Shown here one piece after another: positions 4,654 through 64,000 of a stretch of DNA of 64,000 nucleotides; the first letter of the stretch is position 1; the number at the start of each line of letters is the position of its first letter. The translations under genes were made by a program, and so were the position numbers. The stretch comes from Primulina eburnea (taxonomy: Eukaryota; Streptophyta; Magnoliopsida; Lamiales; Gesneriaceae): positions 62,001 to 126,000 of the forward strand of contig NW_027331447.1 in the NCBI RefSeq assembly GCF_022965805.1, written 5' to 3'. The notes under the pieces were generated by a model that worked only from the letters and a program-made list of their open reading frames with translations, searched no databases and had not been told where the DNA came from.

Positions 4654-4919
4654 CTCGCTAGGGCGGTCAAAACCGACCGCCCCAGCGAGACGTCGTTTTT
4701 TTCAAAAACATAGCCACCGAGAAAGCCTCGCTCGGGCGGTCACTTTTGACCGCCCCAGCGAGTGAATTTTTTTTAAAAAAAGAAAAAATTGGTTTTCCTG
4801 GCGAACACTTCTCGCTAGGGCGGTCACTTTTGACCGCCCCAGCGCGCCTTCATATTTTTCAAACAGTCTGTCACCGAAAACCACTCGCTAGGGCGGACAC
4901 CTTTGACCGCCCTAGCGAG
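4654..4919 (+). repeat. Four GC-rich hairpin modules upstream of the Athila extra ORF
   Basis: Four 36-bp units at 4654-4689, 4727-4762, 4811-4846 and 4884-4919. Each is an imperfect palindrome with arms of the type CTCGCTAGGGCGGTC and GACCGCCCCAGCGAG around an A/T-rich centre. Start-to-start spacing is 73, 84 and 73 bp; AT-rich linkers carry a CACCGA-type motif just before units 2 and 4. The same unit occurs three times in this element's LTR (7850-8058), and a close relative is in the LTR of element B. What it does is unknown; an upstream regulatory module is one possibility. Confidence 0.85.
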
Positions 4920-5201: not shown

Positions 5202-6350
5202 ATGGCACCTAAACGGTCTAAGGTAACTCACGGTGCCTCTAGTTCTCGTTCGACTCCGTCTAATTTTGTTAATGAGAAAGCTCGGGAGCGGTTTGAGCAT
5301 GCTAAACTACATAGAAAACCAATCCCTGAGCGAGGGTTTACTACATCTGTTATTAGTGATTTTCCGGAAGTCTTAGTAGAGGGACGAGGGTGGAGTAATT
5401 TCTTAGCACAACCGAATGCCGCGGTGATTCCGGTTGTGCGTGAATTCTATGCAAATGCTCCGGAGCGGAGTGAGCCTAAGGCATCTGTGCGGGGGCGTCT
5501 AGTCCCGTATGATTCGAGAACTATCAATGACTTGCTGGGTTTACCGTCGGTCGATGACTCTGAGTTTCAGGCGTGGGTGCTCAACCCGGACTATGATTTA
5601 ATTATTCGCACGCTCTGCTATCCGGGCACCACGTGGAAACAGCCGGGGACGTATACGGTTTTTCTTGAAAAATTTTTGAGAGTGGACGCGGCAATGTGGT
5701 ATGCGTTTCTATCTAAGAGATTGATGCCGGTCGGGCATACGAGTGATGTCCAGCGTGAGCGGGCGGTTGTTCTGTATGCCATCCAGACTGGGATGGCGAT
5801 TGATGTGGGCAGACTCATCTTTGGACAGCTCAACATGTGCATACACAGCAGCAATTTGGCGTTTTATTTTCCGACGATCGTGACTGAGTTATGTGCCCGA
5901 GCGGGGGTGATATTTGCCGATGATGATGAGTGGCTACCACCGATGAGAGCTATTGATGACGCTCTTTATCGATCCAAGAGGGAGAAGAGGCAGGCAGAGC
6001 TGCCCGAGGATGTATTTTTCGAGTATGGGGGCGCAGCTCAACCACCTCCGGCTTTAGGACATGCACTGCCTCCTCCGCAGCCACGCCGCCGTGCCATGCG
6101 TGATCGCATCAACGAATTGGGCGCTTGGGCCACTTACCAGACTGAGTATCAGGCCGTCAATCAAGCTCATATTCAGAACGTCGAGTACTTGGTACAGGGG
6201 ATCACAACGCATTTGGGCATCGACACATCCGGCCTGCCACCACCACCCGCATACCCACCACCCTTCCAGTTCCAGTACCATTATCCTATGCCGCCACCAG
6301 CTGACGAGGGAGTCCCACCACCTGAGCATGACGAGGATGAGGAGTTCTGA
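5202..6350 (+). CDS. Athila extra 3' ORF, plant-transposon-domain protein (env-position)
   Basis: A 382-codon intact ORF in the position where Athila elements carry an env-like gene. I chose ATG 5202 (MAPKRSKVTHGASSS) because the open frame upstream covers GC-rich hairpins and leader-like sequence without protein-like character. The N-terminus is basic and Ser-rich; a central region with RTINDLLGLP, then TSDVQRERAVVLYAI and VGRLIFGQL, matches my memory of the putative plant transposon protein domain; the C-terminus is Pro-rich and acidic. No signal peptide or transmembrane segment is evident, so I would not call it an envelope protein. Function unknown. A domain of similar pattern appears in the SIRE ORF at 48168-50600. 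Confidence 0.82.
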   Translation: MAPKRSKVTHGASSSRSTPSNFVNEKARERFEHAKLHRKPIPERGFTTSVISDFPEVLVEGRGWSNFLAQPNAAVIPVVREFYANAPERSEPKASVRGRLVPYDSRTINDLLGLPSVDDSEFQAWVLNPDYDLIIRTLCYPGTTWKQPGTYTVFLEKFLRVDAAMWYAFLSKRLMPVGHTSDVQRERAVVLYAIQTGMAIDVGRLIFGQLNMCIHSSNLAFYFPTIVTELCARAGVIFADDDEWLPPMRAIDDALYRSKREKRQAELPEDVFFEYGGAAQPPPALGHALPPPQPRRRAMRDRINELGAWATYQTEYQAVNQAHIQNVEYLVQGITTHLGIDTSGLPPPPAYPPPFQFQYHYPMPPPADEGVPPPEHDEDEEF

Positions 6351-7657: not shown

Positions 7658-9093
7658 TGATAGGACTCGTTTTTACGTGTTTTTAGTGTTGTTTTCGAGT
7701 CGCATTCATGCATCATATTAGTTTGTTTTAGTTTAATTTAGCATTTTTCTATCATTATTTAGCATATGGCTGATCTCGTGTATTTTGTGGTTGTTTTGTA
7801 GGAATTGGACCGAAAAGTGGGATTTTATTTGGCACAACAGCGAAGAGATCTCGCTAGGGCGGTCAAAAGAGGGAGCCCCAGCGAGCATTTTAAGTTGATC
7901 GAGTAGTTGATGCGCGAGTGTCTCGCTAGGGCGGTCAAAAGTGACCGCCCCAGCGAGAATTTTAATCCAGCCGAGGAACAGCGAGACCAGAGACATGGCC
8001 AAGGATTTTAATTCGAGAACCACTCGCCCCAGCGGTAAAAGGTGGTCGCCCTAGCGAGCGACGAGATCAAAGAAGATTTGTTTCCAAGTTTTGTGGACTC
8101 TATTCTACACCTAACCTAATACACGAGATTGGGCGCCGTTTTTTCAGTCGGACACCATATTTTTCCATCACTTTTCTTGGGAGGAAGGCTAGGAGCAAAG
8201 AGATTTCGAAGACATCAAGATTTCCAAGCGTCGTGGCCGTCATCCATCGTCAACCTTAGTATTTTAATTATTCAGTTTTTATTTCTTAGATTGTTGTTGA
8301 TTTCTAGCATGAATTTTAGTGGCTAAACTCTAGATTTGTTGGGATTTGAGGGGATCCTACCCCGTACTCGTTGTTGAACATTATTTAGCGACGTTTTTAT
8401 GAGTGATTTGTTTATGCTTTTGTGCTCTCTTATTTCAATTGGAGTCTAGCTAACTTCCTTTGATTATTTCATGTTGTTGATGATTTCGATAGAATAATTG
8501 ACAATAGGATCGAATAGTATAGACCACGGATTTACAATTTTAGTAGATATACGGAATTGGATACGTGTCGATAGTGATAATTCACCCGGATGAAAGCTAG
8601 CGGGTTCCATAGAACGTAATGCAATCGTGAACTGTTAAATAATTGAGGATACTTGATTACTGCATGTTTATGATTAGTATTAATATAGCTCGACAGAGTA
8701 TATTGATTAGTCTAGGGAATTCCGTCGAAGGCACGAGTAAAAGTCGAGTATAATTGTTTAAACACGAGTGGTAGGTGAACTGATAATTCCCAACAAATTC
8801 GTCTCTCATTTGATTTTCATCCAATTTAATCATTGATTTCTTGATTATTTGTTCTTGCACTTTAATTATTTCAGTTATTGAATTCACTTTAGTTTAATCA
8901 CCAACTCAATCTATCGTTGCTGAAGAAATTTACTTGAAAATAAAGATATTGTAACGCAGTCCTCGTGGATCGATACTCGTATTCACTTACGTTTATTATA
9001 ACTTGACTATCGTGCACTTGCGATATTTTAAATCGAGCTTTCATTTATAAAACAAATTTTGGGACTATTCACTGTGCAAGTTTTGCTCGATCA
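7658..9093 (+). repeat. Athila 3' LTR
   Basis: A 1436-bp LTR starting TGATAGGACTCG after the polypurine tract and ending ..TTGCTCGATCA before an abrupt switch into gypsy pol. No partner LTR is in the window. It contains three of the GC-rich hairpin modules (7850-8058). Short open frames inside it are not protein-like. Confidence 0.85.
7850..8058 (+). repeat. Three GC-rich hairpin modules in the Athila LTR
   Basis: Units at 7850-7885 (right arm degraded), 7922-7957 (near perfect) and 8023-8058 (arms exchanged), about 190-400 bp inside the LTR. Same motif as at 4654-4919: CTCGCTAGGGCGGTC facing GACCGCCCCAGCGAG. Spacing 72 and 101 bp. Confidence 0.85.
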
Positions 9094-10173: not shown

Positions 10174-10308
10174 TGTAATGCCCGAGAATTTAATTAACGT
10201 AATCTGAGATGATTTGTTGATTATGACTTGATGTAATTATAGCCGGGCCAGTTCGAGATTAAATTGGAAAAAAATTATGAGGGACACAAGATTTGGGCCG
10301 AATGTCAT

Positions 10309-10545
10309 TCGCCCGGGCGGGAGTTTATGACCGCCCGAGCGAGAGGGTTTAATGGTAGAAAGCCGAGAGTCCTTCGCCCGGGCGGCACTTTTTGTCCGCC
10401 CGAGCGAGATGTTTAATTTGTGAGGGCCGAGAGTTCTTCGCCCTAGCGAGCAATTTTGACCGCCCGAGCGACTGGAGATGTTCAGCCGAGGATCTCGACC
10501 GAAACCAACTCGCCCTAGCGAGCACCTTTCGTCCGCCCTAGCGAG
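10309..10545 (+). repeat. Four GC-rich modules, LTR B (5' copy)
   Basis: Units at 10309-10343, 10373-10408, 10438-10470 and 10509-10545, pattern TCGCCCGGGCGG..CCGCCCGAGCGAG; the last two use CGCCCTAGCGAG in the left half. Spacing 64, 65 and 71 bp, with GCCGAGAGT-type linkers just before units 2 and 3. Confidence 0.88.
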
Positions 10546-12350: not shown

Positions 12351-12407
12351 TGGTATCAGAGCCGATAGTTCCTTTAGCGATAGTTCCTTTAGCGATAGTT
12401 CCTTTAG
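12351..12407 (+). other. Primer-binding site and 15-bp tandem repeat
   Basis: TGGTATCAGAGC at 12351-12362 pairs with the 3' end of initiator tRNA-Met (known plant PBS). It is followed immediately by three copies of CGATAGTTCCTTTAG (12363-12407) and a fourth degenerate one. Confidence 0.85.
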
Positions 12408-12741: not shown

Positions 12742-13668
12742 ATAGCTCCCCGCAGAATTCCAGAAAAAGGCAGTACGTCATATGATCAGACAGATAGAAC
12801 AGAATCTCAGATAGATGTGGCAGAAATTCAGATGGAAACACAGTTACAGAGGTTTCAGTCGTTTCAACCGCCAATTCTGAAAGGAACTGAGACGTCAATA
12901 GATTGTGAGAAATGGCTAGAGGAGACAGAAATGTTATTTGAATTCCTGAATTTCACAGATGAGTGTAGAATTAGGCTTATTGAGAACCAGTTGCAAGAGA
13001 CTGCTAGAAGATGGTGGTTACTCACCAAAGGAGCCTTAGAGCAGAGTCGTTCAGTGATCACGTGGAAGACCTTTAGATTTGAATTTTATCAAAGATTCTT
13101 CCCTACCTCATATAGACAGGATAGAAGTGCAGAATTTGCAAACCTGAGACAGGGTCCTTTGAGTGTTGATGAATACCTGGCACAGTTCTTCACACTTTTA
13201 CGTTTTGCTCCTCTTGTGGCTAGAAATGATGATGCTATGGCTAGCCAGTTCATTCAAGGATTGAATCCAGAAATACGTACGTTGGTGAATGTGAAGCAAT
13301 CAAGTAATTTTGCGGATACCTTGAATAGAGCTAAAAGAGCAGAAACGGTTCTGATAGGACAACAGGGAGCATCATATGTTTTTCCAAAACAGACCGCACA
13401 GCAACTGCCTTCCAGAGTAGAGATTGGCAGTCATAGTGGTAAGGAAAAAGAACCATTGAGAATTCAAAAGAAACAGTTCAAGAAGTTAGGAAGTGATTCC
13501 TCTAGTTCTAGCAGTCCTGGTCCGAACTATATCGGAGTGTATTGTAGGATTTGCGGAGGGAGACATTCCCCAGAGCAATGCAAAGGAGTGCTTGGTAGGT
13601 GCAATATCTGTAAGCAGACGGGACACTTTGCTAAAGTTTGTCCTCAGAAACATTTTCGAAGATCTTAA
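12742..13668 (+). CDS. gag: Element B gag protein
   Basis: Open for 308 codons. The expected gag start PRRIPE is preceded by ATA (12742) where related gypsy gags have ATG; the same change is seen in element A. The first real in-frame ATG is at 12832, after a GTG at 12817. Contents: retrotransposon gag domain (ILKGTETSIDCEKWLEETE, ARRWWLLTKGAL, WKTFRFEFYQRFFP, FRF-type matrix/capsid motifs), a basic Ser-rich linker, and two zinc knuckles CRICGGRHSPEQC and CNICKQTGHFAKVC. The frame ends shortly after the second knuckle, before any protease. Capsid and RNA-packaging function is likely if translation starts at a non-AUG or internal codon. Confidence 0.85.
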   Translation: MAPRRIPEKGSTSYDQTDRTESQIDVAEIQMETQLQRFQSFQPPILKGTETSIDCEKWLEETEMLFEFLNFTDECRIRLIENQLQETARRWWLLTKGALEQSRSVITWKTFRFEFYQRFFPTSYRQDRSAEFANLRQGPLSVDEYLAQFFTLLRFAPLVARNDDAMASQFIQGLNPEIRTLVNVKQSSNFADTLNRAKRAETVLIGQQGASYVFPKQTAQQLPSRVEIGSHSGKEKEPLRIQKKQFKKLGSDSSSSSSPGPNYIGVYCRICGGRHSPEQCKGVLGRCNICKQTGHFAKVCPQKHFRRS

Positions 13669-15953: not shown

Positions 15954-15991
15954 GAGTTCGAGGACGAACTCAGATCTAAGAGGGGGAGAAA
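15954..15991 (+). other. Hairpin and polypurine tract of element B
   Basis: GAGTTCG-AGGA-CGAACTC (15954-15971) then AAGAGGGGGAGAAA directly before the 3' LTR. Element A has the identical arrangement at 35723-35760. Confidence 0.8.
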
Positions 15992-18123
15992 TGTAATGCC
16001 CGAGAATTTAATTAACGTAATCTGAGATGATTTGTTGATTATGACTTGATGTAATTATAGCCGGGCCAGTTCGAGATTAAATTGGAAAAAAATTATGAGG
16101 GACACAAGATTTGGGCCGAATGTCATTCGCCCGGGCGGGAGTTAATGACCGCCCGAGCGAGAGGGTTTAATGGTAGAAAGCCGAGAGTCCTTCGCCCGGG
16201 CGGCACTTTTTGTCCGCCCGAGCGAGATGTTTAATTTGTGAGGGCCGAGAGTTCTTCGCCCTAGCGAGCAATTTTGACCGCCCGAGCGACTGGAGATGTT
16301 CAGCCGAGGATCTCGACCGAAACCAACTCGCCCTAGCGAGCACCTTTCGTCCGCCCTAGCGAGCGGCATGCATTTTGTCAAATCGCCACTTGTCTCTTGG
16401 GAATGCAACGTGTATATATATATATATATATATATGCGATTCCTTCTTCAGAAAGAAGAAAGGAAATCGAGGAAGGAGGAAGCTAAGAAATTCTCACGCC
16501 TTTTTACTTTAAGCCACCCGTCTGATTTTGAATCTGAGTATAGTACCGAGTTCCTGGCAACGATAGCTACAATTGGACGTAAGTTTTGTTACGTTTAGAC
16601 AAGATTTGATTTTATGATGTTGTCAGAATTGCATATGATTCAGATATAGCGTTTCTACTACCGTAGATATTGTAGAATCGAAGTCAAATTTAGAAACAGA
16701 TTGTTTAGAGAATTGTTATGAATTTTAGAGTTGATTTGATTGAGATTGCTATCAGAATTATGCTGTTATTCATTTTCAAGTGTACAGATACTGAAGTTAT
16801 AGATTGTACTGAGATTTATTAGGAATTCTGGTAGTGTAATTGTGATGTTAAGACTGACGGGGTTACAAGACTGTAGTGTTATGCCGTCTAAACATCAGTT
16901 GATACAGATTGATCAGATTCAGTATTGGTTTCTGTTATCTCGTGATATTGTTGATGTGATCAGATTTTGTACTGAATTGGGTATTGATCAGAACAGATTG
17001 TGTTTTGAGCTACACATTGATACAGTGTATTTGTTATTGTCGTTTCAGATCAGGGATGAACAAATTCGACTTCGAGACTTCGTCTTCATCAGACGGGGAC
17101 GACAAAGGTATAATTCATGTGATATTTGGGACGCATAACTCAAATTAGATTAATTTGAGTTTCCCAATAAAATCACATACTAGATTATTGGTTATATTGT
17201 TATCTGATTATGCTTTGATTATAGAATCCGTATTCAAGCAGGTAAGATAATTGTGATATTCAGTTATGAATATGATTATGCTTTGTTTGCAGATTGTTAT
17301 TCATTGCAGTTAAGATAGGAAAGTCTTTGACAGGCATTGTCAAATATCTAGAAGTTTCGGTGTATCTCAGCATAAGAGTAGGTATTACTCTTATTGCCGC
17401 CGTTGATACAGCTCAGACCGAAGTCTAGGAATGAGACGTTCATTACCCCGATTGGAGGGTAGGTAGTGACGTCTTATTCACACCGGGATCCCTAGAGTTC
17501 TAGTCGAGTCAAGTCTAGACGTGATTTGATTAGGACTGCATGCTTATATGGATGTGGTTCCTAGATCATAGGACCCATCATTATTGCTTCCAATTGTGCT
17601 AGCATGTTTTTATGATTTAGATTGGTCATATGCATGGTTGGTTGATTTGAAGTGCATGCTTGTTGTGTGATTAGATTTCATAGCTTATGAAATCTAATGT
17701 TTCGAATTTATTCGTAACAGCATGTTTCATGAATTATTTTATGTATATACATGTTTACCATGTTTTATACTGGGATTTATTCTCACCGGAGTTATCCGGC
17801 TGTTGTCTTGTTTTGTATGTGTGCATGACAACAGGTGGGGCTGGATCAGGGTCGAGATGACGATGAGAGAAGACGAGTTAGCGTGGTGATTCCGGACTTA
17901 CAGTAGATTGGGTTTTATTACTTGAATTTAGTAGTTGAACCTTAGATTAGATTATTGTATGTTAATACTGAAATGTATTTTATACAGATATGTATATTAT
18001 TTAGATTCCATTACCTTCCGCTATTGTATATTAAAAAGAAAAATTTTTAGACCCTGTTTTATCTTAATTGATAATTAAATCCCAACGATGATTAAGAAAA
18101 TGATTAGCGTCCGGGTCCCCACA
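15992..18123 (+). repeat. Element B 3' LTR
   Basis: 2132 bp, nearly identical to 10174-12345 apart from about nine substitutions and a TA tract 41 bp shorter (16413-16434). Modules at 16127-16363. Ends CCCCACA followed by target copy GAGAA. Confidence 0.93.
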
Positions 18124-19217: not shown

Positions 19218-22200
19218 TGTAGAACCCGAAAATCAGATTACGTACAAGCCATGCATAATTGCTACTATTTAAATTAAAAATGAAAATTTTATATAGTTAA
19301 GAAGTGTTTGATTGATTTTAATAATTTTAAGTCATGATTATTTATTTTAAAGGTAGATGTTTAGTTTTATCTTTTCAGGATAAATACGCGAGGTCGGACC
19401 GGAGTTTGGAGATTTGAGATAAGATTAATAATAAGAAAAATATTCCTAAATTTAATTTAATTCAAAGAATGATTTAATTTAAAGAAATAGAATGTTTTAG
19501 GATTTATTAAAATTAGTTGGAATCAAGTTAGTAAATAAATTCTTTTAGGTTAAATATTTAATTAAAGATTAAAACAAAATGTGTAAACAAATGGGGATAA
19601 AGTAATCTAGATATAATATAGTCAAGAAATTTAACATAGCATTTAAATATTTAAATTTTTAAACCATGCAATGTAATGCAAGAATTTATTCTAAATAATG
19701 TGTTAATTCACTCAAATATATAATTGGTGTATTAAACCCTAAACATTTAAATACAAGAATTAATCAAGGTCATACCGTGCAAAATGGTGGATGAATTTCG
19801 GTCCATGCCTAAACAAATTCAAAATGTTAGTAACACCCCATTTAACCCATTCATAATTACACTTCATGGTGTATTCATTTACCCTCTTAATTCACTAAGA
19901 AATAGTAATTCAAATATTATAGCACACCACATTTATCCTCAACTTACTACCTAGCATATCAACGTGCGTATGCAACAAAAATGAGGGAAAAGAATCGGCT
20001 AGCAAGGAATATGAAAACATTTCAAACCATTCCACATCTTCAGTTGTAACCTCCCACCTTAATGCATATTATGGCTACTTTAACACCTCTTATAACACCC
20101 ACCTTCCATGTCTATCATAGCAACACCCTGACCTTCAAAAATTAGCAGAAACAGCAGCTTAGAAACCGTTAAAATTACAGCAGGAAACAAGGAAAAGAAA
20201 TCCAAATTCGTTCTATCGCGTCGAATTGTCGTTTTGATTTGTTTTCTTCAAAACAAATTCCAGGCATGTATATGTTGTTTCTTTTCTCTTCAATCAAGTC
20301 CTATAGATATTTTAAAAAATTATATGTTCAAGATTCATGAGGCAAAATGAAATTTGACAGCAACAATTTCGAAAATATAAAATCTGCACAGGTTCTCTCC
20401 ATTGGCTTATGTCTTCGTTTGAGATGTTTCTTGTGGTTTCATGATGTGGTTCGTTTCCAGGCAATCAAGGCTGCTTCTAGGCATAAATTAGAATGTGTTA
20501 GAGTGTTTTTGGTTCATTTGTTTCAGTCCAAATACTCAAGAACGAAGAAATGACAACAAACTCTTCTTATATGCAGAAATGAGTCACAATTTTTTTTCAT
20601 TGAGTGGTTAAGGAGTGTGTTCGAATCTTGGCTGTCCTAGGGACTATAACCATGGTTCGAACCCTTCTTTATCATGTCTAGGACGTGACCAAAACAATTT
20701 TTTTCAAGCTTGGTTCACGGATCCTTGGGATTTTTACATAAACATGACAATAGCCCATCGATTTTTTCAAAAATCTGATTTTTGTGTGAGTGTGAGTTCG
20801 GTTTTTGGGTGTTGTCTGGATTATGGTTGGCTTCTAGCCATAGCCATGGTTCATACAACACTTTATCATGTCTAGATTGAGCCATGGTCGATTATAGGAC
20901 CACTGGAAATGATACAAGACAGCAAGTTAGTGCAAAACATCACAGTACAGAATTTTGTGTTCTTGGGTTGGAGCTGTGATTTGTCCTAGGTATTTGCTTG
21001 GGTTGTGGTTGGCTTTTAGCCCTTAGCCATGGTCCAAGACATGCCTTAGGATGTTGGTAAGACTCTCTGGTCAATGGTTCAAACCAATAGCCATTTGTTT
21101 CAGAGTTTCAACCCAAATAAGCAACACAGCCGCTGCTGTAATTTCTGTTCTTGACAGCAACTTTGAGTTGCGGTTCAGGAGGTGGTTTGAGGCTTTTAGC
21201 CCATGGCATTGGACTGGACAGTACCTTAATGAGTTAGGAAAGTTGTGTTTTTGGCCGTTCGTGATTTGGTCGAGTTTAGAGGTCGTACGAGAATTTACGG
21301 TGAAAGGTGCCAAAATGACTCTCGGAAGAGTGTTTTATGTTTTTGGATTCCATTCACCAATTTTCGTGTACAGTTATCATCATGCATATTTTTAAGTATG
21401 TTTGGGGTATTTTTAATCATGGTTAAACGTTGGTTTAATGTTGGTTCGGGTTGGTACGAATCCATGATTAAAAATCAAGTTATTGGTTTTAATCGTCTCG
21501 TTTTTTGTTCTATTGTTAAGTTTTTGTCAAGTTAAGATTTATTGCATATGTCACATATTAGAAGGAAGTCGCAGCAAGCCTGGGAACGATCCAACTCATC
21601 CGGTAAAAATAAGTTTATAATTATATTACGTGCATAAAAATATAAAATGTTTATTTTTGAGATATATGCTATATGTCTTGTGGCCACCTTACGTTTATGG
21701 GTTTGGAAGTCGGTAGGCGCAACCGAGGACTCTCCGCCCAGTGACTTACGACCGGTTTATGATTATGTACGGGTACGGACATCCAGTCCAAAAGCTGTGA
21801 TTGATCTCTACCGCCTAGTATACTGCGGTTTAGTCTGATCAGGCGCTCACGTTATGTTATGGGCCACTTGCTTAGAAACATTATCTCTACCCGAAAAATT
21901 ATTATATGTTATGGCAGATATCTATTGAGCAAAGCTTTTATGTATGATTTTCAGTTATGCACGTAGTTATAATTATTCATGATACGATTTTTACCGTACG
22001 CTTTACGATACTTTATTTTTACGTTGCATGCGATTTTATGATATATTACTTGTTATTCACGATATATACATGTTGAGTCTTTAGACTCACTAGACTTGAT
22101 TGTTGTAGGTATTGATGAGGTCGAGACCGCGGGCGGAGACCAGTGAGCGATCTTGGGACAGCAGTAGTGAACCCGAGGACCTCATGATTTAATTTATGCA

Positions 22201-22397
22201 CCTTTTATCATTCAAACTCGATTTTAACATGTTGGATTATTTTTAAATTACTGTTTGAAATACTATGTTGACTTCCGCTGTTATTTTAAGGTTATGTTAT
22301 TTACATGTTTATTTTATAAATTGGCCAAGTTATTTATTTATTTAGAAAACTTTTAATAATTCCGCAGAATTATGAATACGAAATACGGGCCTTTACA
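19218..22397 (+). repeat. Element D 3' LTR
   Basis: 3180 bp, TGTAGAACCCG..GGGCCTTTACA, preceded by polypurine TTTTAAGGGGGGG. Homologous in places to LTR C (for example the segment GAGTCTTTAGACTCACTAGA and the DNA around 22080-22190) but clearly a different subfamily. No coding sequence. Confidence 0.85.
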
Positions 22398-29896: not shown

Positions 29897-30162
29897 GACC
29901 GCACCCGCGCCCAGAACAGGAGTGCACTCGCGGTCATGCAATTGTGGATTTTTGCAAGAAAGGCCGAAGCCACACCGCACGCGCGGTGCAACCAAGACCG
30001 CACCCGTGGTTGAGTGGCAGAAAATAGGGGGTTTTTGGAAATGGCAAGATCGCACCCGCGGTCTTGTACGTAGCGCACCCGCGGTCGTCAAAATTCAGAA
30101 AATGAAGATAATGCCAAAGCTTGAGCGCACCCGCGGTGCATGACACGACCGCACCCGCGGTC
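29897..30162 (+). repeat. Four paired GC-rich modules, LTR A
   Basis: Units start at 29897, 29973, 30048 and 30123 (spacing 76, 75, 75 bp) and are 38-40 bp long. Each has two half-sites of the form GACCGCACCCGCGGTC, each half nearly palindromic around CCGCGG. The 3' LTR copy is 35889-36153. Different sequence from the B and Athila modules, same placement upstream of TATA. Confidence 0.85.
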
Positions 30163-30210
30163 ATGCGTGTTGCTTGAAAAATAATGCCACGTTTCAGAAT
30201 TTTCATGCAG

Positions 30211-31864: not shown

Positions 31865-31876
31865 TGGTATCAGAGC
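31865..31876 (+). other. Element A primer-binding site
   Basis: TGGTATCAGAGC, complementary to initiator tRNA-Met, six bases after the LTR end. Confidence 0.88.
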
Positions 31877-32190
31877 GATAGATCCTTTAGGATGAGATAA
31901 TTAGAGACATAGATCCTTTAGACTGAGATAGAAGATAATGAGCGGGGTAGATTGAATTTTCTTTCCTTGCATGCGATTGCTAGCATGAGAATTATTTCAA
32001 TGTTAACCTACATCGTGTGTGCTAGCATGATTTATTTCTTTCCCTATTACATGTTGTTTGTTATCTGAGTTGAATACATCATGTAATTAGCAAGAATGAA
32101 TCAGAACCGAGTCTGAATCAGAGGTATATGATCAGAGGAGGGCTGAGGCAGATTATATAGATTGTGTATTGATTTGTTTGATATTCAGAT

Positions 32191-33090
32191 ATACCGCCTC
32201 GGAGAATTCCAGAAAGGGGTAGTACTTCGTCTGAACAGATAGATGCTTCAGAAATTCAGATAGAAGCCAAGATGAGGGAGTTTCAGTTATTACAGCCGCC
32301 GATTCTGAGTGGTACCGAGACATCTGAAGATTGTCAGAACTTGTTTGATGATATAGAAATCTTGTTCGATTTACTTGCTTGCACAGATGAACAGAGGGTT
32401 AAAATGGTGCCTTATCAATCACGAGAAACCGCCAGGAATTGGTGGATTACAATCAAAGGAGTATTAGCACAACGTGGTACTGTGATCACGTGGGAAGTCT
32501 TCAAGACTGAATTCTATCGAAGATTTTTCTCAGCCTCGTACCGAGAGGACAAGAAAGTAGAGTTTGAGAATTTGAGCCAAGGCTCATTGAATATTGATGA
32601 ATATGCTGCTAGATTCTCTACTTTACTGTGTTTTGCTCCTAATTTAGCTGGAAATGATGAAGCTGTAGTGAATCAGTTCATCAGAGGGTTGAATTCAGAA
32701 GTAGTTGCATTTATGAATCTGCAGCGACCTTACCATTTTGCGGATATCTTGAGTAGAGCAAAGAGAGCTGAGGCAAGTCTGATTAGACAATTGACAAGGT
32801 TATGTGTGAAGCAACCTCAGACACAGCAATTCCCTCTCCGATTTGATCGCGGCAGTACGAGTAGGAAGCAAGATTTGCTGAAAGCTCGAAAGAAGCCATT
32901 CAAGAAATTGGGAGGTGGTTCCTCTAGCTCAAGTGGTTCCAGTCCAAGTCATATTGGAGTCTATTGCAGGAATTGCGGAGGGAGACATTCCTCAGAGCAA
33001 TGCCAAGGAGTGCTTGGTAGATGCAATATTTGTAGACAGCCAGGGCATTTTGCTAAGGTGTGTCCACAGAGAGGTCCCCGAAGATCTTAG
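32191..33090 (+). CDS. gag: Element A gag protein
   Basis: Open for 299 codons from ATA at 32191 (followed by PPRRIPERGSTSSEQ), the position of the usual gypsy gag ATG; first true ATG is 32272. Gag domain motifs: ILSGTETSEDCQNLFDDIE, ARNWWITIKG, WEVFKTEFYRRFF, VEFENLSQGSLNIDEYAARF. Two zinc knuckles near the end: CRNCGGRHSSEQC and CNICRQPGHFAKVC. Ends in RRS-stop, as B does. Intact reading frame in an old copy whose pol is gone suggests selection on gag in the family. Probable capsid/nucleocapsid protein. Confidence 0.85.
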   Translation: MPPRRIPERGSTSSEQIDASEIQIEAKMREFQLLQPPILSGTETSEDCQNLFDDIEILFDLLACTDEQRVKMVPYQSRETARNWWITIKGVLAQRGTVITWEVFKTEFYRRFFSASYREDKKVEFENLSQGSLNIDEYAARFSTLLCFAPNLAGNDEAVVNQFIRGLNSEVVAFMNLQRPYHFADILSRAKRAEASLIRQLTRLCVKQPQTQQFPLRFDRGSTSRKQDLLKARKKPFKKLGGGSSSSSGSSPSHIGVYCRNCGGRHSSEQCQGVLGRCNICRQPGHFAKVCPQRGPRRS

Positions 33091-35722
33091 AGGGCTGGAC
33101 CATCTGGATATGATGATCGAGGGACAGACCCAGGACCCAATGGGTGACATAGTGACAGGTACTGATCTTTTATGAATAGATTGCATATGTATTGATATAT
33201 ATTAATGCATTCCCTACGATTATCTTTGACTGAGTTGCATTGATACATGATGTACCTATTGGGTCTGTTTATGCTGTAGTATTGATTTATACATTTTGGG
33301 AAAGAGAGATTGATATCAGAGATTTCTGAGACATATTGTATACTGCAGTAAGATGAGAATAAGATTGAGTCAGATTATAATGTACTTGTGTTTCTGATTT
33401 GATTGCATTATTGATGTTAATATGCTAAACAAGTACAGAACTGTTATAGATTCCTTTCAGGAGAATATAAGATTCAGACCAGATATGGTTGATGACTAAA
33501 GATTTCACAGTAAGTATTCTAGATTTAGAATTCCTGTGATATTTAGATTGTCTATGACTCGATTAATACAGAAAGGAACAGATGGTATCCTTATGTATTC
33601 AGTAGATTTACTGAAATCGAGCCTAGTATTGGCAGATTTGCCAATAATGCATGAGTTGGCTGATGTTTGCCTAGATAAGATGTTAGATTTAATTTATATC
33701 AGAAAGATAGATTTCAGAATTGAATTCAGATCAGATACTGATTGTTGTTTTAGAATTCAGTACAGAATGATATTGAGTGTACAGAATGATACAGAATGAA
33801 TTGAAAGATCATTAGAAGAGTACCGACCAGGAGTTACATTTGATTTAGTGTTTCTCTTTGGCATGTGTCAGTATATTCAGAGATGTTCTGATGATTCTAT
33901 GCTCATTGTATCTATGAGATTTTGATATATTTGCAGCATCTGATTGATTGAATCGAATATTTGAAGATTGTATTGAAAATTCATAGAACTGTGATGATTA
34001 TATACAGAAATTATTCAGATAAGAATCTTGCTTGAAACAGATTGTATTCAGAGTATGCGTTATCTGAAATTAGTATATCGATTGAGTTTGACACAGTTGA
34101 GATTGTGATCAGGGGCTGATAACGATATCGATATCAGAAAAATCAGAAATTGCAGAGATGTCAGAAATATCAGAAATGTCAGAAATGTCTGATTTGGCAG
34201 ATTATTTTATTCGACTGTTGCTTTATATCTGCTGAGTATTGTTATTGTTCTAAATCAGTATTTGAGACATCTTATATTGTTTTGGGGAGCATATTTTCCT
34301 TGCAGATGAGATATACCAGTTGATCAGAATGACATGAAGATATTTACCTGGAATCCTTGTTTTATGAGTTCACTGAACTCACTAGATCTGTATAGGATAT
34401 TGATATTTCGTTTCTGATTTAGTATTATTGTTGTTTTTGAATCCGTATATGCTACGGATTATTGTGAACCAGTGAGAGTATATACAGTTTCAACCGAATC
34501 AGAGCAGAATTCGAGAGTTACAGTAATTCAGGAATGTGATCAGAATGTTCAAAACTAGATTTCAGTAATTAGAGCCGAGTAACAGATATGTGATTTTGTG
34601 TTTTGTATGAGGCTGATTATCTTGTGATATCAGAATGGTTCAGAATTGTCTAACAGAAGTTGATGTTGATAGTCAGAGCCGAATACCAGATAGGTATTTC
34701 TTCTTTAATTAATGTTATTAACTGCTTTGTTTGTATCAAACAGTTCGAATCTGAAATCACAGATAGGGTCAGAAATGCACCGTAGTGGATTCAGTTTTCA
34801 GTTTGATGATTGAGAATGTATTGTATTCGAACAGATAGTTGTGATATAGACGGATGAGATCAGTTATGACAGAATTTGTATCGAAATGTTGGCAGAAATT
34901 GTACTGATATGTCTGAATCGCTAACAGAAAAGACAGAAAGATAGAAATCAGAATATTTATTACAGAATTATGTAGTCTAAATAGAAATGGAAGTACATTT
35001 CTATGGCTTTCGTAATGACATTACTGCCATTTTTTTTTTATAGATTGTGATATGATATGATTAAGATTGACAGATTATTCAATCTATATCTATCAGTTTG
35101 TACCAGATAACGTACAAACATGACCAAATGACACAGATCGGTGTCAGAGAAGTGGTCAAAAAGATCAGAATGCCACAGTAGATTATGCAGATTGTGATTT
35201 TGCTTGAGTTTGTATTCGTGACAGAATATATCATGAACTCTATCTTAGAGTGTTTCACAGGTTGACAGGCAGTCAGAATGGGTTATCCAGATATTGGAAG
35301 ACTTTGGTACAGCTTTAGTGCTGGATGTTAGCACTATGCAGCTTTAGTGCTGGATGTTAGCACTAATGGTTATGACTTATTAGTACCGTATGACAATAGC
35401 TATTAAGATAGTTTAGAATGGACAGACTTAGGAAACCAACGTCGGATGATGACGATTGGTATTTGAAGCTGAAGATGGTATATGTCTTTGTTTAAAATAA
35501 ACAGATTTGATAACAGCAGACGGTACTGATATGTGATGAGTTGTAGATTGGTTTATACGGATGTCGTATAGCCAGTAATGCGAGATTGATTCTGTCAGAA
35601 GGATTGGAGAAGTATTATGACATTATACTTACTGAGTTCTTATTCTAGACCGGAATCAGATGTTTGAGTTTTGATTTAACTTTGTTATACATTTCGTCCG
35701 ATATCTCTGAATTGATTATTAT
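33091..35722 (+). other. Decayed pol-derived region of element A
   Basis: 2.6 kb with no pol ORF. At 33536-33799 an open stretch reads LIQKGTDGILMYSVDLLKSS then LADLPIMHELADVCLDKM and IDFRIEFRSDTD, the recognisable protease-RT linker of gypsy pol (normally ..LPVVREFPDVFP..). The remainder aligns with B's 13669-15953. A 29-bp tandem duplication (TTTAGTGCTGGATGTTAGCA core) sits at 35310-35365. Confidence 0.65.
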
Positions 35723-35760
35723 GAGTTCGAGGACGAACTCAGATCTAAGAGGGGGAGAAA
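35723..35760 (+). other. Hairpin and polypurine tract of element A
   Basis: GAGTTCG-AGGA-CGAACTC then AAGAGGGGGAGAAA immediately before TGTAAGGCCC. Confidence 0.8.
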
Positions 35761-36886
35761 TGTAAGGCCCAAGAATTACAGAATCGATAACCAAGATTAT
35801 TAATCGTCATTAACGTGAGACTCGGAAGATATGAGAATGCATGACATGCGATGAGGGAAGAAAGACATGAGAAAAATAGGGTTTGCAAGACCGCACCCGC
35901 GCCAGAACAGGAGTGCACTCGCGGTCATGCAATTGTGGATTTTTGCAAGAAAGGCCGAAGCCACACCGCACCCGCGGTGCAACCAAGACCGCACCCGCGG
36001 TTGAGTGGCAGAAAGTTGGGGGTTTTTGGAAATGGCAAGACCGCACCCGCGGTCTTGTACGTAACGCACCCGTGGTCGTCAAAATTCAGAAAATGAAGAT
36101 AATGCCGAAGCATGAGCACACCTGCGGTGCATGACACGACCGCACCCGCGGTCATGCGTTTTTCTTGAAAAATAATGCCACATTTCAGAATTTGCATGCA
36201 GTATATATAAGTTCGAATGACGCGTCTGTTCCTCAGAAAACTCAGAATAAGGCCGAATATTTTGATAGAAAATCCTTACGCCTTTTAGATTGGCGATTGT
36301 GGAAGATCCGTCCATCAGAATTCGAATTCGAACGCAGTATCGTGTTCCTCTCGACTCGAGCTACACAAGGACATAAGTTTGTTACGTTTTGAGGTGTTTT
36401 GAAAATATGATGTTACTAGAATTGAATGTGATTCAGATATAGCATTTCTGCTACCGTAGACATTGTAGAATTGAAGTCAGATTAAAGAACAGACTGTTTC
36501 AGTAATTGTTATGATTTTCGAAAGATATTGACCGAGATTATATATCAGAATTGTGTAAGTATTCAGATTATGAATTGTGGTGACACAGATTATGGGTTCG
36601 AGAATTATATTTGTGATGTTCAGATTGACGGGGTTATTCAGATTGTATTGTATGCCGTCGAAACATCAGTAGATTGATATTGATCAGATTCAGTAGTGAT
36701 TTAGATTGATCAGATTCAAATATTATTTCGGTAATATTGTGATGTCGATGATATGATTGAATTGTGTCTTGTTCAGATATTGATCAGATTACGTACTGAG
36801 TTGAGTATTGATCAGAACAGATTCTGAACTGAGATATATACTGATATTGTATTTAATTGATTTGTCATTATCAGATTGATATGGAC
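35761..36886 (+). repeat. Element A 3' LTR, truncated
   Basis: Matches 29768-30841 and then stops at GATATGGACAGGTT, where an inverted LTR begins. About 950 bp of the expected 3' end are absent. Retains the ~56-bp segment that the 5' LTR lost. Confidence 0.88.
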
Positions 36887-36902: not shown

Positions 36903-38500
36903 CACCTGTTGCCATGCACACATACAGACAAGACAACAGCCGGATAACTCCGTTGAGATATAAATATCCCAGTATAAACAATGCATCAATGCAATCATAT
37001 AAAACATATATAAAAGCATAAACAATCATTAAAACATGTATTCAATCTAATTACATGAACAAATACGAATCTGTATTTAAGTCAATGACTTGTTATCTGA
37101 TCTTATCTTATTTCTAACATAGGGATCCCAATCTAAATTTAGACTTCGGCATGCTGTATCGAATGTCTACAATAGAAGTCGATCTACATCTAAGCACATC
37201 GATACACCGTAAGTCTAGAGTCTTAGCGGTTCTGACAAAGACTCGGCGGTTCTGCCCTAGCTAGGCTGACCTGCCCTAGACTCAAACTCTGGCTCTGCTA
37301 TCATTCAATAGACGAAACATATCAATCTGATAATCTGCAAATATCAATGCAATAAAATAAAGTATATGATTTTGGGAAACTCAAGTCAAACCTAACTCGA
37401 GTTGTGCAATCCCCAATCAACATTTATTTATACATTTCTTAATGTTGCTCTGATACAATCGAAGTCTTGACTCAAAGTCTGTCACTGTTCAATCTGGCAA
37501 TGACAATATCAATACACTGTATCAATGTTCTAATTAAATCACGACACCTCTGTTTTATCAAATTCTTACAGTACAACAGTATAATCTTGTGATACTGGTA
37601 ATACCATATCAGTCTATACCAATTCCATTAGCTTATAATCAACCACCGTACAAATCTGACATCACATTTCAGTCAATTCAACTTTGAAATTCATAACAAT
37701 TCTATATGATATCCGTTTCTTAATCTGACTTCGATTCTACGATGTCTAACATGTCAAGAACATCATATATGACGTGTATTAAATTCTAACAACATCATAT
37801 TTTCAAAACATGTCAAAACGTAATAAAACTTACGTCCTGTAGTAGCCTGCATTGATATGAACACAATACCGAAGTCGGATTTAAAATCTAACGGACGGAT
37901 TGATCGCAAATCGAATTCTAAAATCAAGAATCGACTTTCCCCTTAAATTTCGATTTTTGCTCTGATTCTTCGATTTTCTTTTGTATGTATATATATATAT
38001 ATATATATACCGTTCATGCTTATGGCGAGGTGGCGCATCCTTTGTAAAACACGTCTCGCGCATATGTGCGACACCAATTGGCGCATATGCGCGAGACCCT
38101 AAGTCTCGGCGCGTCTGTCTCACGGTGGCTCGCGCATATGCGCGACATATCTTGGCGCATATGCGCGAGGCTTCTGCTCAAAAATGCCAAGTGTCGGGTT
38201 GTCTCGCGCATGTGCGCGAATCCACATCGCGCATGTGCGCCAACATCTCTGGACCCCTCGCGCATGTGCGCGCATACAGTCGCGCATGTGCGCCTAGTGT
38301 TCTGTTCCGCACCATGGGCTTCTGCCCTACTCGCGAATATGCGCGCCTACTCTTCGCGCATATGCGCGATACCTTCGGCCCTCGCACCAACAATTTCATA
38401 TACAAACTTTTAATTCGTGTCTCGATTAGCCCTTTCGTAATCATCTCGATTAAAAATTAATAATCGTAATTTAACACGATATAAAATCTTGGGCATTACA
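36887..38500 (-). repeat. Inverted LTR G of the A/B superfamily, 3' end missing
   Basis: Minus strand starts TGTAATGCCCAAG at 38500, then five CGCGCATATGCGCG module units, a TA tract (37988-38009), GGACGTAAG, and sequence homologous to LTR B to the CAACAGGTGGGACAGG region at 36887. No internal region is attached. The left (3') end is fused to LTR A. Confidence 0.82.
38055..38371 (-). repeat. Five paired CGCGCATATGCGCG modules, LTR G
   Basis: Units start at 38055, 38129, 38203, 38257 and 38330 (spacing 74, 74, 54, 73 bp), ~38-42 bp each. Each contains two near-perfect palindromes such as CTCGCGCATATGCGCGA and GCGCATATGCGCGAG. On the minus strand they lie between LTR start and TA tract, as in A, B and J. 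Confidence 0.88.
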
Positions 38501-39991: not shown

Positions 39992-42900
39992 TGTAGAACC
40001 CGTAAATTATACTACGTATAAGCCATGCATAATTCTAGTATTTAAATATGATTTTATTGCATGAGAATTTAAATTCTTTTCCTTAAATTTAATTATTTTA
40101 TTGCAGTAGTTTAATTGTTACCTTTTCAGTTAATTGAGTGAGGCCGGACTGGAGTTGGAATTTGAGATAAAATTTAATATTAAGAAATCATTCCTAGAAT
40201 TTATTTAAGTTAAATAATAAGTTAATTTAATGTAAAAGAAAGATTGAGGAATTATTTAAATAATTTGAGATAGGTAGAAAATAAAGTTCAATAATTAATT
40301 TCTTAATTTACTAAAATATTTATTGGGTAGATAAAACACTAAAGACTTAAAATAAAATATTTAAGAAATATTTTTCCCTTCCATTATCAAAATTTTTGGC
40401 CACTTCACTGGTAGGGATTTAATTAATTGTCAACCCTCAAACTTTGATATCTTTCCCTATCCATTCATGATGGATAATTCCTTAAATTTTATTTACCACT
40501 AAATAATATTTAAGCAATAATTTTACCATGTTTATCTAGCAACTTTTCCCTCCTTTTTAATGATGATAAAATCGGCCATGCACCCTATAATATCAACCTC
40601 AAATCTTTGATATCATTCTCCCTTCCTTATCTCTCAAACTCAAAGATAGAAAAGATTATTTGCTCCATTTATCTTGCAAACTTTCCTTCATCTCTTAGAC
40701 TCATTTCTTCTCTCCATTATTTCAAAATTTCAGAGCTTAAACAAGAGAGAAAATCGTGAGGTAGCCAAATAAAAATAGAGAGAAAAAGTGAGAAAAGCGA
40801 AGCACTCCGCCTCCTCCGCGCCGCGTCGTTGTTTTCTTTTGTTTTCTTCAAAACAAAATCCAGGCATGTCTATATTCTTCTTCCACTCTTCAATCAAGCC
40901 ATATTAATATTTTGAAACATCATACTCATGATTTTTTTTAGCAAAACCCGAAATTACATGACAGAAATTTTGAGTGAAACATGCACAGATTTTTCGGCCC
41001 TCTTCATTGCTACCATACGGTTTGGTTGTTTTTTTGAGTACAGGTGGTTGGCTCGTGTCCAGACTCCCAAGGCTGCATCTAGACATGTACTAGGACATGT
41101 TAGGATCATACTGGTCCATTCGTTCAAGCCCCATACCCGCTGGAAATTTAGAAACGACAGCAACACGTCCCTATTGTCACTTCACTACAACAATAAATGG
41201 CTATTGTGACACATTTTTGTAGACACTTTTAATCAAATGTTGTTACAAATACTTAATAATGACACTTGTAAAAAATTAATAATATGTAAAATAAAAAAAC
41301 ATATTAGATTAATTACCATGACATTTTTAATTGATGTCATCTTTTATATGGAGGGAAACAATTACTTTTCCCACATCGTAAAAAATCGTTAAAAACTAAA
41401 AAATTTCACTATAAATAAGTGTGAGAATATTTAGGTTAGATAAATATTGGAGGACGGAAAATAATTGTCTCCCTCTATATAAAAAATGACATCAATTAAA
41501 AATGTCAGGATAACTAATCTAATATGTTTTTTATTCTCACATTTATTTTATCTAATTTCCCTCCTCCTATATTTATCCAACCCAAATATTCTCACATTTG
41601 TTATTGTCACTATAAATAACATACACGATACTTTTAGTTGTCATTATAAATGATTTTAACTGACATATAAATTTGTCATTATTACTATAATAACAAGGCA
41701 TCTATAAATGTATTTAAATATGAGTTTTCCTGACATTTAAAATTGTCATTATATGAATAATTATTAACACGTATGAAGTTGTCATTAACATCTTATAATG
41801 ACATTAAAAAATGAGAGTAAGTTTAAGACGACATTGGAATAGATGACATTTGTTGGAGGTGTCACTAAAACTTAAATGTCACTAAATATTGAATATGATG
41901 ACATTTATGAATGTCACCATAAGCATTTTTTCTTGTAGTGCTTGTGTTCGATTTTTCTTCTGTCAAAGGATGATGCTCCTGACCTTGGCTGCCCTAGGGG
42001 CTACAGCCATGTTTAGAACACCTCCTTGTTATGTCTAAGAGATGACCAAGTCGCCCATTCGAGGCTTGGTCCACGATGGAATCGGTTTTCAAATCAAAAC
42101 AAGAACAGCCCCCTTCGACCCTTCCCTTTTACTGCATGTGTATTTCTCGGTTTTGATGGTTGGGGTGAATCTCAATTGGCCTCTGGCCCTTAGCCCTGGT
42201 TCCCTCCATACCAAATGATATCTAGATCATGCCATGGTCAATCAAATGGCCATTGGAATGGTCCGTGACAGCAAGCAAACCCGTCCTCCCCGCACGCGCA
42301 TAATTGGTCTCGGGTGGGACGTGCGGCGCATTTCTGGTGTAGTTTGAATTGTGGCTGGCCTAGGGGCCTTAGCCATGGTTCAAACCATTCCTTAGGATGT
42401 TTTTAAGAGGTTCTGGTCAGTGGTTCAAGCCCCAATGGCCATTAGCCTTGCAAACGACGCAAGGAAACGCAAACACAGCAGCTATATATTTTTGATAGCA
42501 AGTGTGCTTCGGTTCAGAGGCGTGTTTCGAGTTCTTGGTTGGGTTTTAGCCTATGGCCTTGGACTAAACAGTGCTTCATCAAGTTAGAAAGGTCATGATT
42601 TTGGCCGTTTGTGATTTAGTCAAGCTTAGAGGTCGTACGAGTAATTACGGTGCTTTGTGCCAAATTGACTCTCGAAAGAGTGTTTCATGTTTTGGCCTCG
42701 ATTAACCAAAATTTCAACTTGTATCATTTTAGGAGCACTGTTTCATCATTTTAGGTGTATTTTAATCATGACTAAATGATGGTTCGGTGTCGGTTCGGGT
42801 TGGCACGGAGTCATGATTAAATACTAAGTCATTGGGCGTAATTGTCTCGTTTTTGGAGTCAATTACAAAGTTTGGTTAAGTAAAATCATTTGCATATTTT

Positions 42901-43736
42901 TCATGTTAGATTTAAGTCGCAGCGAGCCTGGGAACGATCCAACCCATTTGGTAAAATTAACACAGGATATTTAATTACGTTATTTAATTATATTACGTGC
43001 ATAAAAATATAAAATATTCATTTTTGAGATTTATGTGATATTGCTTGTGGCCACTTCACTATCATGGGATTATTAATTCACCCGGTGGTCACTCACCGGT
43101 TCAGTTCAGTTCAGTTCCACCCAGTAAACTGTGGCATTACACTGATCAGACGATTATTACTTCACCCGGTGGTCACTTACCGGTTCAGTTCAGGAGCCAC
43201 TAGCGTAGAACATAATCTCAACAGAAAATTTATGACATGTTATTTTATGACAGGGCTCGATTGAGCAAGCATTACACTTATGATTTCCAGTTCAGTTATG
43301 CACGTATTATAATTACTCATGTCATGATATTTACACGTTATGCCAGTCTCATGATAATTTCATGTTGCATGAAATTTTATTATATTTACTTCTTATTTAT
43401 GATGTATGCATGCTGAGTCTTTAGACTCACTAGACTTGATTGTTGTAGGTACTGATGAGGTTGGGATCGAGGGCGGGGACCAGTGAGCCATCTTGGGTCA
43501 GCAGTAGGTGGAACCCGAGGACCTCATTTTCAGCATTTACCAATTTTATGCTCAAACATGTCATTTTTGTTGGATTTGTTATTTTTCAAACAATAATTAC
43601 TTCCGCTGCTATTTCGAATATTTAAATATTGAATCTTTTTAATAGTTTATTTATTTAAAGAGGCATTTTAATTAGTTAAAGAGAAAATTTTAAATTTTTC
43701 CGTAAATTTTCAAACACGAATTTTTAGGCCATTACA
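39992..43736 (+). repeat. Element C 5' LTR
   Basis: 3745 bp including the MITE (about 2.98 kb without it), ending TTTTTAGGCCATTACA before the PBS. Contains a direct repeat of about 40 bp (TTCACCCGGTGGTCACTCA type) at about 43071 and 43154. A ~100-bp stretch near 40385-40490 is missing from the 3' LTR. Confidence 0.88.
41183..41940. mobile_element. CACTA-like MITE
   Basis: 758 bp with ends CACTACAA..TTGTAGTG and 3-bp target duplication CTT (41180-41182, 41941-41943). The 3' LTR of C has the uninterrupted site GTCACTTGTGTTCG at about 61976-61990. No transposase. Many TGACATT/AATGTCA words and an internal inverted repeat (arms about 41290-41380 and 41455-41540). Confidence 0.92.
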
Positions 43737-43738
43737 GC

Positions 43739-43751
43739 TGGTGTCAGAGCC
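43739..43751 (+). other. Element C primer-binding site
   Basis: TGGTGTCAGAGCC, one mismatch from the tRNA-Met-complementary TGGTATCAGAGCC, two bases after the LTR end. Confidence 0.85.
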
Positions 43752-63408: not shown

Positions 63409-64000
63409 TGATATGAATCTGGCCGGGCATGACGTGCTAATGGTTGGAAATAAATTCAAAGAGGCACTACAAGGAGTGATGATCATGGAAGAGGGGCTCG
63501 TGATGCATGGGAGTATGTTTGGAGATCAAAAGAACATTATTCAAGCATAATTTTTGTCGATCGAGGATACACGGACCTGTACACGGACCTGTACATGGGG
63601 GGGTCCGTGTCCATCACAATCGACAATGAAGAAAACCGAGCCTACACGGACCCATGCACGGAGGACTACACGGGGTCTGTGTCTTTTGTTTGCTGGATCT
63701 CTTGGGAATGCAACGTGTATATATATATATATATATGCGATTCCTTCTTCAGAAAGAAGAAAGGAAATCGAGGAAGGAGGAAGCTAAGAAATTCTCACGC
63801 CTTTTTACTTTAAGCCACCTGTCTGATTTTGAATCTAAGTATAGTACCGAGTTCCTGGCAACGATAGCTACAATTGGACGTAAGTTTTGTTACGTTTAGA
63901 CAAGATTTGATTTTATGATGTTGTCAGAATTGCATATGATTCAGATATAGCGTTTCTACTACCGTAGATATTGTAGAATCGAAGTCAGATTTAGAAACAG
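63409..64000 (+). repeat. LTR J, start of another A/B-superfamily element
   Basis: Probably starts TGATATGAATCTGG at 63409 inside LTR C, and runs off the window. From TCTCTTGGGAATGC (63698) it matches LTR B from 10575 with two substitutions to the window end, apart from TA-tract length. Upstream of that it has no similarity to B. TA tract 63719-63736. The start is uncertain, since it differs from the usual TGTAATGCCC. Confidence 0.75.
63569..63682 (+). repeat. Two paired modules in LTR J
   Basis: Units at 63569-63610 and 63644-63682 (spacing 75 bp): ACACGGACC..GGTCCGTGT and ACACGGACCC..GGGTCTGTGT, with internal repeats of CACGGACC. The linker ends AAAACCGAGCCT. Same position relative to the TA tract as modules in A, B and G. 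Confidence 0.78.

Follow-up and report, generated by a model that had tools for sequence, protein, structure and literature searches.

A constant gapped palindrome, CGC-N4-GCG, underlies arrays of short modules carried by two distinct kinds of Ty3 retrotransposon in a 64-kb window (the whole stretch of DNA that was analyzed). The arrays are real and non-random. The core is constant across arrays A, B, G, E, and F, whereas its four inner bases and its flanks are family specific, and within these arrays similar units are separated by mostly dissimilar linkers. On balance, we favor the reading that the modules are enhancer-like arrays of binding sites for a dimeric DNA-binding protein, homogenized by tandem duplication, and by analogy the arrays are best read as the Ty3 counterpart of the boxes found in Sireviruses.

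The window is a nest of LTR retrotransposons (Table 1). Elements A and B encode Ty3-type gag (PF03732 and PF19259), and no open reading frame of at least 130 amino acids other than gag, hence no pol open reading frame, was found between their LTRs. Pieces of the remaining, non-gag internal region (elements at 12346-15990 and about 31866-35760) are ~71% alike between the two; with gag present and pol lacking, this non-autonomous family seems, from its sequences, to have persisted over time. Element B, whose LTR is ~2.17 kb long, was inserted into the integrase gene of another Ty3 element, as recognized by an integrase domain match, and the interrupted pol has a weak Chromo match (E value of 8e-4; 19.7 bits versus a cutoff of 25.1). 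The LTRs of A, B, G, and J presumably belong to Del/Tekay, a label taken from LTR length and ends. The element that carries arrays E and F has reverse transcriptase and RNase H ahead of integrase, which is the Ty3 order. Its pol is 38 to 39% identical, over 185 residues each, to two other Ty3 pol fragments in the window, and a self-comparison of the window gave no match of at least 120 bp between its array region and the LTRs of A, B, G, and J. The start of its putative 3' LTR near 7658 was read by eye. A possible polypurine tract, TAGTATGAGGGGGT, occurs in two copies 3' of the PF20167 open reading frame (about 6482 and 7645) and recalls the multiple polypurine tracts of Sireviruses (PMC2829016). 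Another repeat family, probably LTRs, comprises three mutually related stretches (20228-22395, 41941-43740, and 61632-63410) with a recurring TAGCCATGG-like word; none of them contains CGC-N4-GCG. The window has no Rfam match at the gathering score and no tRNA, and a search for relatives in viral contigs, where plant DNA is hardly expected, gave 0 confirmed matches.

Table 1. Elements, module arrays, and promoter-associated features of the 64-kb window. Exact sites are CGC-N4-GCG; pair spacing is measured between site centers and module spacing from left end to left end.
Feature	Position	Strand	Sites; pair spacing (bp)	Module spacing (bp)	Remarks
Element A	LTRs from 29768 and 35761				gag ORF present
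Element B	LTRs from 10174 and 15992	+			Flanking direct repeat GAGAA, read directly
Start of LTR B	10174..10178	+			TGTAA, read directly
Element E/F	pol 616-4497; probable 3' LTR from ~7658				Starts before the window
PF20167 ORF of element E/F	5202..6350	+			Transposase_32, putative plant transposon protein; E value 1.2e-42; downstream of array E
LTR G		-			Truncated LTR
LTR J		+			Runs off the window end
LTR J past the array	63698..64000	+			B-type; versus B1, 39/39 bp (63698-63736) and 281/283 bp (63718-64000), setting aside length differences in the TA run
Array A (A1)	29897..30163	+	8 sites, 6 exact and 2 with one mismatch; 23, 23, 23, 24	76, 75, 75	U3 of element A 5' LTR; 4 modules (29897-29936, 29973-30012, 30048-30087, 30123-30163); N4 mostly ACCC
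Array A2	35889..36154	+	8 word matches, 5 exact; 22, 23, 23, 24	75, 75, 75	Copy in element A 3' LTR
Array B (B1)	10308..10545	+	8/8 exact; 22-23	65, 65, 72	U3 of element B 5' LTR; 4 modules; N4 CCGG/CCGA/CCTA
Array B2	16126..16363	+	8 exact		Copy in element B 3' LTR
Array G	38056..38370	-	10 sites, 8 exact and 2 with one mismatch; 22-23	74, 74, 54, 73	U3 of truncated LTR; 5 modules; N4 ATAT/ATGT
Array J	63569..63682	+		about 75, read directly	2 modules, ACACGGACC..GGTCCGTGT
Array E	4654..4919	+	8/8 exact; 22	73, 84, 73	4 modules, B-type word; between pol and PF20167 ORF
Array F	7850..8058	+	6 sites, 5 exact and 1 with one mismatch; 22	72, 101	3 modules, B-type word; ~190 bp into the probable 3' LTR of element E/F
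GCCAC	30186..30190	+			22 bases past the last array A module
TATA-like TATTTAAAA	4927..4935	+			Starts 8 bp past array E; putative promoter role
GGACGTAAGTTTTGTTACGTTT	10797, 16575, 30320, 63876	+			Promoter-downstream stretch
GGACGTAAGTTTTGTTACGTTT	37816	-			Promoter-downstream stretch

The modules that the first-pass annotation placed in A, B, G, and J are present in the sequence, as are modules in all six U3 regions of this LTR superfamily found in the window (A1, A2, B1, B2, G, and J). Arrays E and F had been overlooked and surfaced in scans of the window for structure and CpG. With up to three mismatches allowed across the whole window, the A word has 18 matches (0.60 expected from shuffles; both A LTRs counted), the G word has 10 (0.52 expected from shuffles), and the B word has 30 (3.09 expected from shuffles; both B LTRs, E, and F counted). 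Taken by itself, the J word does not exceed chance at this threshold (23 matches versus 26.4 in shuffles of the whole window); the exact 12-bp repeat in J is real.

The palindromes had been described as unrelated in sequence, with a recognized word that changes from family to family, yet CGC-N4-GCG occurs in every module of A, B, and G, one constant core runs through A, B, G, E, and F, and J is the single array that changes the word. A dyad search over all 64 triplets, spacers of 0 to 9, and 22 modules (leaving out the copies A2 and B2) singled out this core, which is present in 20 of the 22 modules and 5 of the 6 arrays; any other dyad reaches at most 6 modules, as do shuffled modules (60 shuffles). 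At least one exact site is present in every module of these five arrays (20 of 20), and of the 40 sites obtained when partners are counted, 35 match exactly and 5 carry a single mismatch. Across the window there are 49 sites versus 1.63 expected, a number that 0 of 100 shuffles reached, and 48 of them lie inside arrays, the exception being a site at 39367. The spacer of four is distinct: CGC-N3-GCG has 1 match in the window and CGC-N5-GCG has 0, and the remaining spacers up to 15 each yield between 0 and 6 matches, except for N6 (17 matches, all in arrays) and N8 (11 matches, 10 in arrays); within modules, 14 of the N6 and 7 of the N8 matches belong to G and one N6 match belongs to E. The inner four bases are ACCC and once ACGC in A; CCGG, CCGA, and CCTA in B; TAGG, TCGG, CCCA, and CCTA in E and F; and ATAT and ATGT in G. 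The 48 array sites are not independent, because A2 and B2 copy A and B, the units within an array are duplicates, and B, E, and F use one word, so that there are just three independent words. The chance that three CpG-rich palindromes share some triplet dyad with an equal spacer is 0.043 for perfect and 0.011 for imperfect palindromes, figures that cover the dyad only and to which the shared pair distance described below adds. A core common to seemingly unrelated words, at a fixed spacing, suggests binding sites for one kind of protein.

Outside J, all 20 modules consist of two sites whose centers are 22 to 24 bp apart. The spacing of ~74 bp proposed for the modules was recovered with E and F included, left-to-left distances being 72 to 76 bp in 10 of 15 cases and departing from this range in the other 5. 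Gaps between successive pairs are 50 to 53 bp in 10 of 15 cases, with values outside that range of 43 and 42 in B, 62 in E, 79 in F, and 31 in G, and linkers are 33 to 37 bp long in 10 of 15 cases, the others being 29 and 29 in B, 48 in E, 65 in F, and 13 in G. The gaps between modules show only weak helical phasing: P is ~0.03 for a period of 10.5 bp and 0.13 once the period is left free (best value, 9.5).

Mean identity among modules within an array is 0.74 in A, 0.79 in B, 0.87 in E, 0.79 in F, and 0.78 in G. Mean identity among linkers is 0.55, 0.54, 0.51, 0.35, and 0.33 in the same order, and that of shuffled linkers is 0.49, 0.45, 0.46, 0.35, and 0.37. Only linkers 1 and 2 of B (0 of 200 shuffles) and linkers 1 and 3 of E (2 of 200) are clearly alike; the likeness of the remaining 14 of 16 pairs within arrays was reached by at least 11 of 200 shuffles, with linkers 1 and 2 of A being borderline (11 of 200). 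The proposal that spacing and symmetry are kept while much of the sequence is not is consistent with these counts. Ordinary tandem duplication, which had been named among the findings that would overturn that proposal, applies in part to B, where TRF reports a period of 64 and linkers 1 and 2 are alike, and to the one pair of E linkers, and it is not clearly seen in the other 14 pairs; an ordinary tandem repeat as a description of whole arrays was accordingly set aside. Since modules are alike and linkers mostly are not, it seems that whole units are duplicated to form an array and that the linkers subsequently drift while the sites stay. Among linkers compared between arrays (10 array pairs), the B-F pair alone stands out (1 of 60 shuffles), followed by B-G (5 of 60). 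Ten of the 22 modules have the 4-mer CCGA no more than 15 bp upstream, and a 4-mer before that many modules was seen in 1 of 300 shuffles; as a shared linker word, arrays and modules taken together, it was equaled by 23 of 300 shuffles, and it stays a lead because B, E, and F are not independent. By eye, CGAR also lies a few bases upstream of many modules in B, E, F, and J and partly in A and G, a word that is the inverse of the CTCG/TTCG at the opening of the B, E, and F modules.

The two LTR copies of each element give a view of mutation within the arrays. B1 and B2 have one difference in 419 bp of U3. A1 and A2 differ at 8 positions in 161 module bases and at 11 in 282 other U3 bases, indels counted; transitions make up 6 of the 8 module differences and 3 of the 11 elsewhere in U3, and 5 of the 6 module transitions are at CG or CCG cytosines, by reading of the difference list. 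This pattern fits methylated, decaying copies, although the numbers are small.

The arrays have a consistent place relative to the promoter in A, B, and G, beginning 128 to 134 bp from the LTR start and ending 47 to 49 bp ahead of the TATA box; the J array ends 36 bp ahead of it. The pentamer GCCAC follows the last module by 21 to 22 bases in A, B, and G, and a shared 5-mer was found in 2 of 2,000 shuffles. Homology of the A, B, G, and J LTRs downstream of the TATA tract, as first proposed, is present. For the LTR stretch ahead of the array, the observed likeness was reached by 0 of 200 shuffles for B-G, 3 for B-J, 8 for A-G, 17 for A-B, 127 for G-J, and 175 for A-J. The 22-bp stretch GGACGTAAGTTTTGTTACGTTT, which holds a short inverted repeat, is present downstream of the promoter with at most one mismatch in 5 of 6 LTR copies. 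Array E stands ~280 bp ahead of the ATG of the PF20167 open reading frame, and the distance of 8 bp to its TATA-like box is unlike that seen in A, B, and G. No TATA box was seen by eye at array F.

Array J departs from the others in both core and geometry. It contains no CGC-N4-GCG and no pairing at 22 to 24 bp, and its arms, ACACGGACC and GGTCCGTGT, lie at other distances when read directly. Strong homology between J and B ends at 63698, with only weak matches upstream of that point, and the change of word in J is abrupt, not gradual. By sequence, J would be a B-type LTR with an unrelated upstream part, which could have come about through a swap of U3 or through rearrangement. Inspection by eye found no proper LTR start in J, and rearrangement or truncation of the copy is therefore just as possible as exchange of U3.

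The arrays were said to be unlike any described element, a view that does not hold beside two close precedents, the repeat motif (RM) boxes of Sireviruses (PMC2829016) and the CpG islands of Del elements (PMC4029996). Sirevirus RMs are palindromes showing dyad symmetry, and CGG-CCG is their core in every one of 13 elements but one. They form CpG islands, with TATA following on average 37 bp past the island, and 77 of 79 linker copies lie upstream of env; they were called Sirevirus specific by the authors and are absent from the classic Ty1/copia elements compared (PMC2829016). The modules described here resemble them in combining a constant core with family-specific inner bases and flanks and in being CpG rich, concentrated mainly in the upper LTR half shortly before TATA, and present in at least eight copies (PMC2829016). 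With one-mismatch sites counted, A and B have 8 sites each, G has 10, and E and F together have 14; J falls short of eight. Judged by length (243 to 320 bp) and GC content (0.58 to 0.60), arrays A, B, and G also correspond to CpG islands before TATA. The further boxes that Sireviruses have upstream of env, in the linker after pol (PMC2829016), would have a parallel in the position of array E between pol and the PF20167 open reading frame if that frame were env-like. Superfamily, core, and pair geometry differ from these precedents. Sireviruses belong to Ty1/copia, and elements A, B, and E/F are Ty3 by gag type or domain order. The published Sirevirus RMs have CGG-CCG in 12 of 13 cases and CGC-N4-GCG in 0 of 13. 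In the window, CGG-N4-CCG (1 match) and CGG-N5-CCG (2 matches) do not occur in any array, one of 6 matches to CGG-N6-CCG (at 4664) is in array E, and 9 of 14 matches to CGG-N10-CCG are inside B, E, and F modules. Neither the 22- to 24-bp pairing nor the 72- to 76-bp module period was found in the sections of the Sirevirus description drawn on here (PMC2829016), and a word common to two distinct elements is likewise unlike Sirevirus RMs.

Tnt1 is a Ty1/copia element, and VANDAL elements are DNA transposons. Subfamilies of the Tnt1 superfamily differ mainly in U3, which has been read as modular evolution and resembles the difference between J and B; no constant gapped palindrome was found in the portion of the Tnt1 description consulted (PMC1838419), and the symmetry of its box I has been remarked on (PMC2829016). 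New lineages of Athila have been described as arising through recombination among distant families. Del LTRs have a 5' CpG island that is variable in length and sequence, comparable to the variable CpG-rich stretch in the 5' half of the long Ty3 LTRs here, and a eudicot group of Del has no CpG island, the feature not being common to all Del groups (PMC4029996). The main text of that paper does not contain the terms palindrom, dyad, spacing, or tandem repeat. The targets of the VANC protein of VANDAL elements are short words in noncoding tandem repeats that vary between related elements, and like the modules they are amplified in tandem and turn over, with the VANC words being bound by protein (PMC5735166); in that system, unlike here, the protein is known, and the term palindrom is absent from the main text. 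A study of nesting (PMC6911290) concerns insertion sites and, in the sections available, has no bearing on the arrays.

Several explanations other than protein binding to a fixed core were weighed. One is a plastic CpG island, shaped in the 5' part of the LTR by slippage and unequal exchange and acting through CpG density or as a moving target of silencing, with no protein reading the core. The same explanation was offered for the variable island of Del LTRs (PMC4029996), the modules are CpG rich (7.3 CpG per 100 bp in J and 10.2 to 17.3 in the other five arrays, versus 2.7 in the window), and most of the transitions between A1 and A2 modules are as methylation predicts. Density alone, however, predicts neither one core with a spacer of four nor the paired sites of all 20 modules, and we regard this explanation as unlikely. 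By analogy with VANC and VANDAL, the arrays might instead be targets of an anti-silencing protein encoded by the retrotransposon, with words and protein coevolving; the variable repeat words of VANC targets (PMC5735166) and the extra open reading frame directly after array E would agree with this. Because A and B show gag alone, such a factor would need to act in trans; in addition, nothing here ties PF20167 to DNA binding and the core is constant rather than coevolving, which makes this proposal quite unlikely.

It is also conceivable that the modules act as stem-loops at the 3' end of the RNA or as cruciforms in DNA. The window has 26 GC-rich inverted repeats with 11-bp arms, compared with 3 to 8 in 10 block shuffles, and 17 of the 26 fall in arrays, taking in 4 of 4 modules in E, 2 of 3 in F, 5 of 5 in G, 2 of 4 in B1 and in B2, and 1 of 2 in J. 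A word-free scan placed 30 of 198 short GC-rich palindromes in arrays, 5.8 times the density outside; word-free scoring recovered G well and few half-sites of other arrays. Folding z-scores (60 shuffles for each array) are strong in E (-11.9), G (-6.2), and F (-4.7), but A (-1.6 and -2.3) and J (-1.7) show little gain over shuffles, B reaches -2.9, just 1 of the 8 A modules in both LTRs is in the inverted-repeat list, and the paired sites of an A module are direct repeats. Many non-array windows also rank high in a window-wide fold scan, and the hairpin as a common feature was rejected; a role for such structures appears very unlikely. Finally, the arrays could be by-products, devoid of present function, of a GC-rich stretch that underwent tandem duplication and gene conversion, as the 64-bp tandem repeat in part of B, the small number of words, and the chance of dyad sharing of 1.1 to 4.3% would allow. 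This is highly improbable when sites and distances have been kept although most linkers have diverged, and when the array holds the same place in three LTR families and recurs in another element.

In the favored reading, that of binding sites, each CGC/GCG pair would be recognized by one protein dimer, encoded by either the host or the element, and a module would engage two dimers acting jointly, the distance between site centers being about two helical turns. Three to five modules follow in series, mostly at 72 to 76 bp, and may activate transcription from the promoter downstream. Arrays would grow and shrink through tandem duplication, which would keep spacer bases and flanks alike within a family by concerted evolution, and the core and geometry would be held by selection in lineages that are still transposing. 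The upstream part of U3 may be replaceable outright, as J suggests. Counting against the binding-site reading are the limitation to three independent words, the absence of core and pairing in J, the weak phasing, the 5 of 15 spacings that are off, and the promoter context of E and F, with the TATA-like box of E at 8 bp and no visible TATA box in F.

A broader proposal, which we put forward tentatively as a possibility, is that one promoter grammar (paired CGC-N4-GCG at two helical turns, repeated at about seven) operates within a single genome in unrelated Ty3 lineages, at LTRs as well as ahead of an extra gene, in parallel to the CGG-CCG boxes of Sireviruses. A single dimer-of-dimers factor would read it, spacer words would be free and homogenized in each family, and a single step could replace the whole U3 with one of another grammar, of which J would be an example. 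If true, this would provide a testable code of core, pair distance, and module period for the transcription of large plant Ty3 elements despite silencing, as well as a defined bait for seeking the DNA-binding factor. It would also mean that the other LTR superfamily shares, with a different core, the layout known from Sireviruses, in which palindromic CpG boxes precede both the LTR promoter and a downstream gene.
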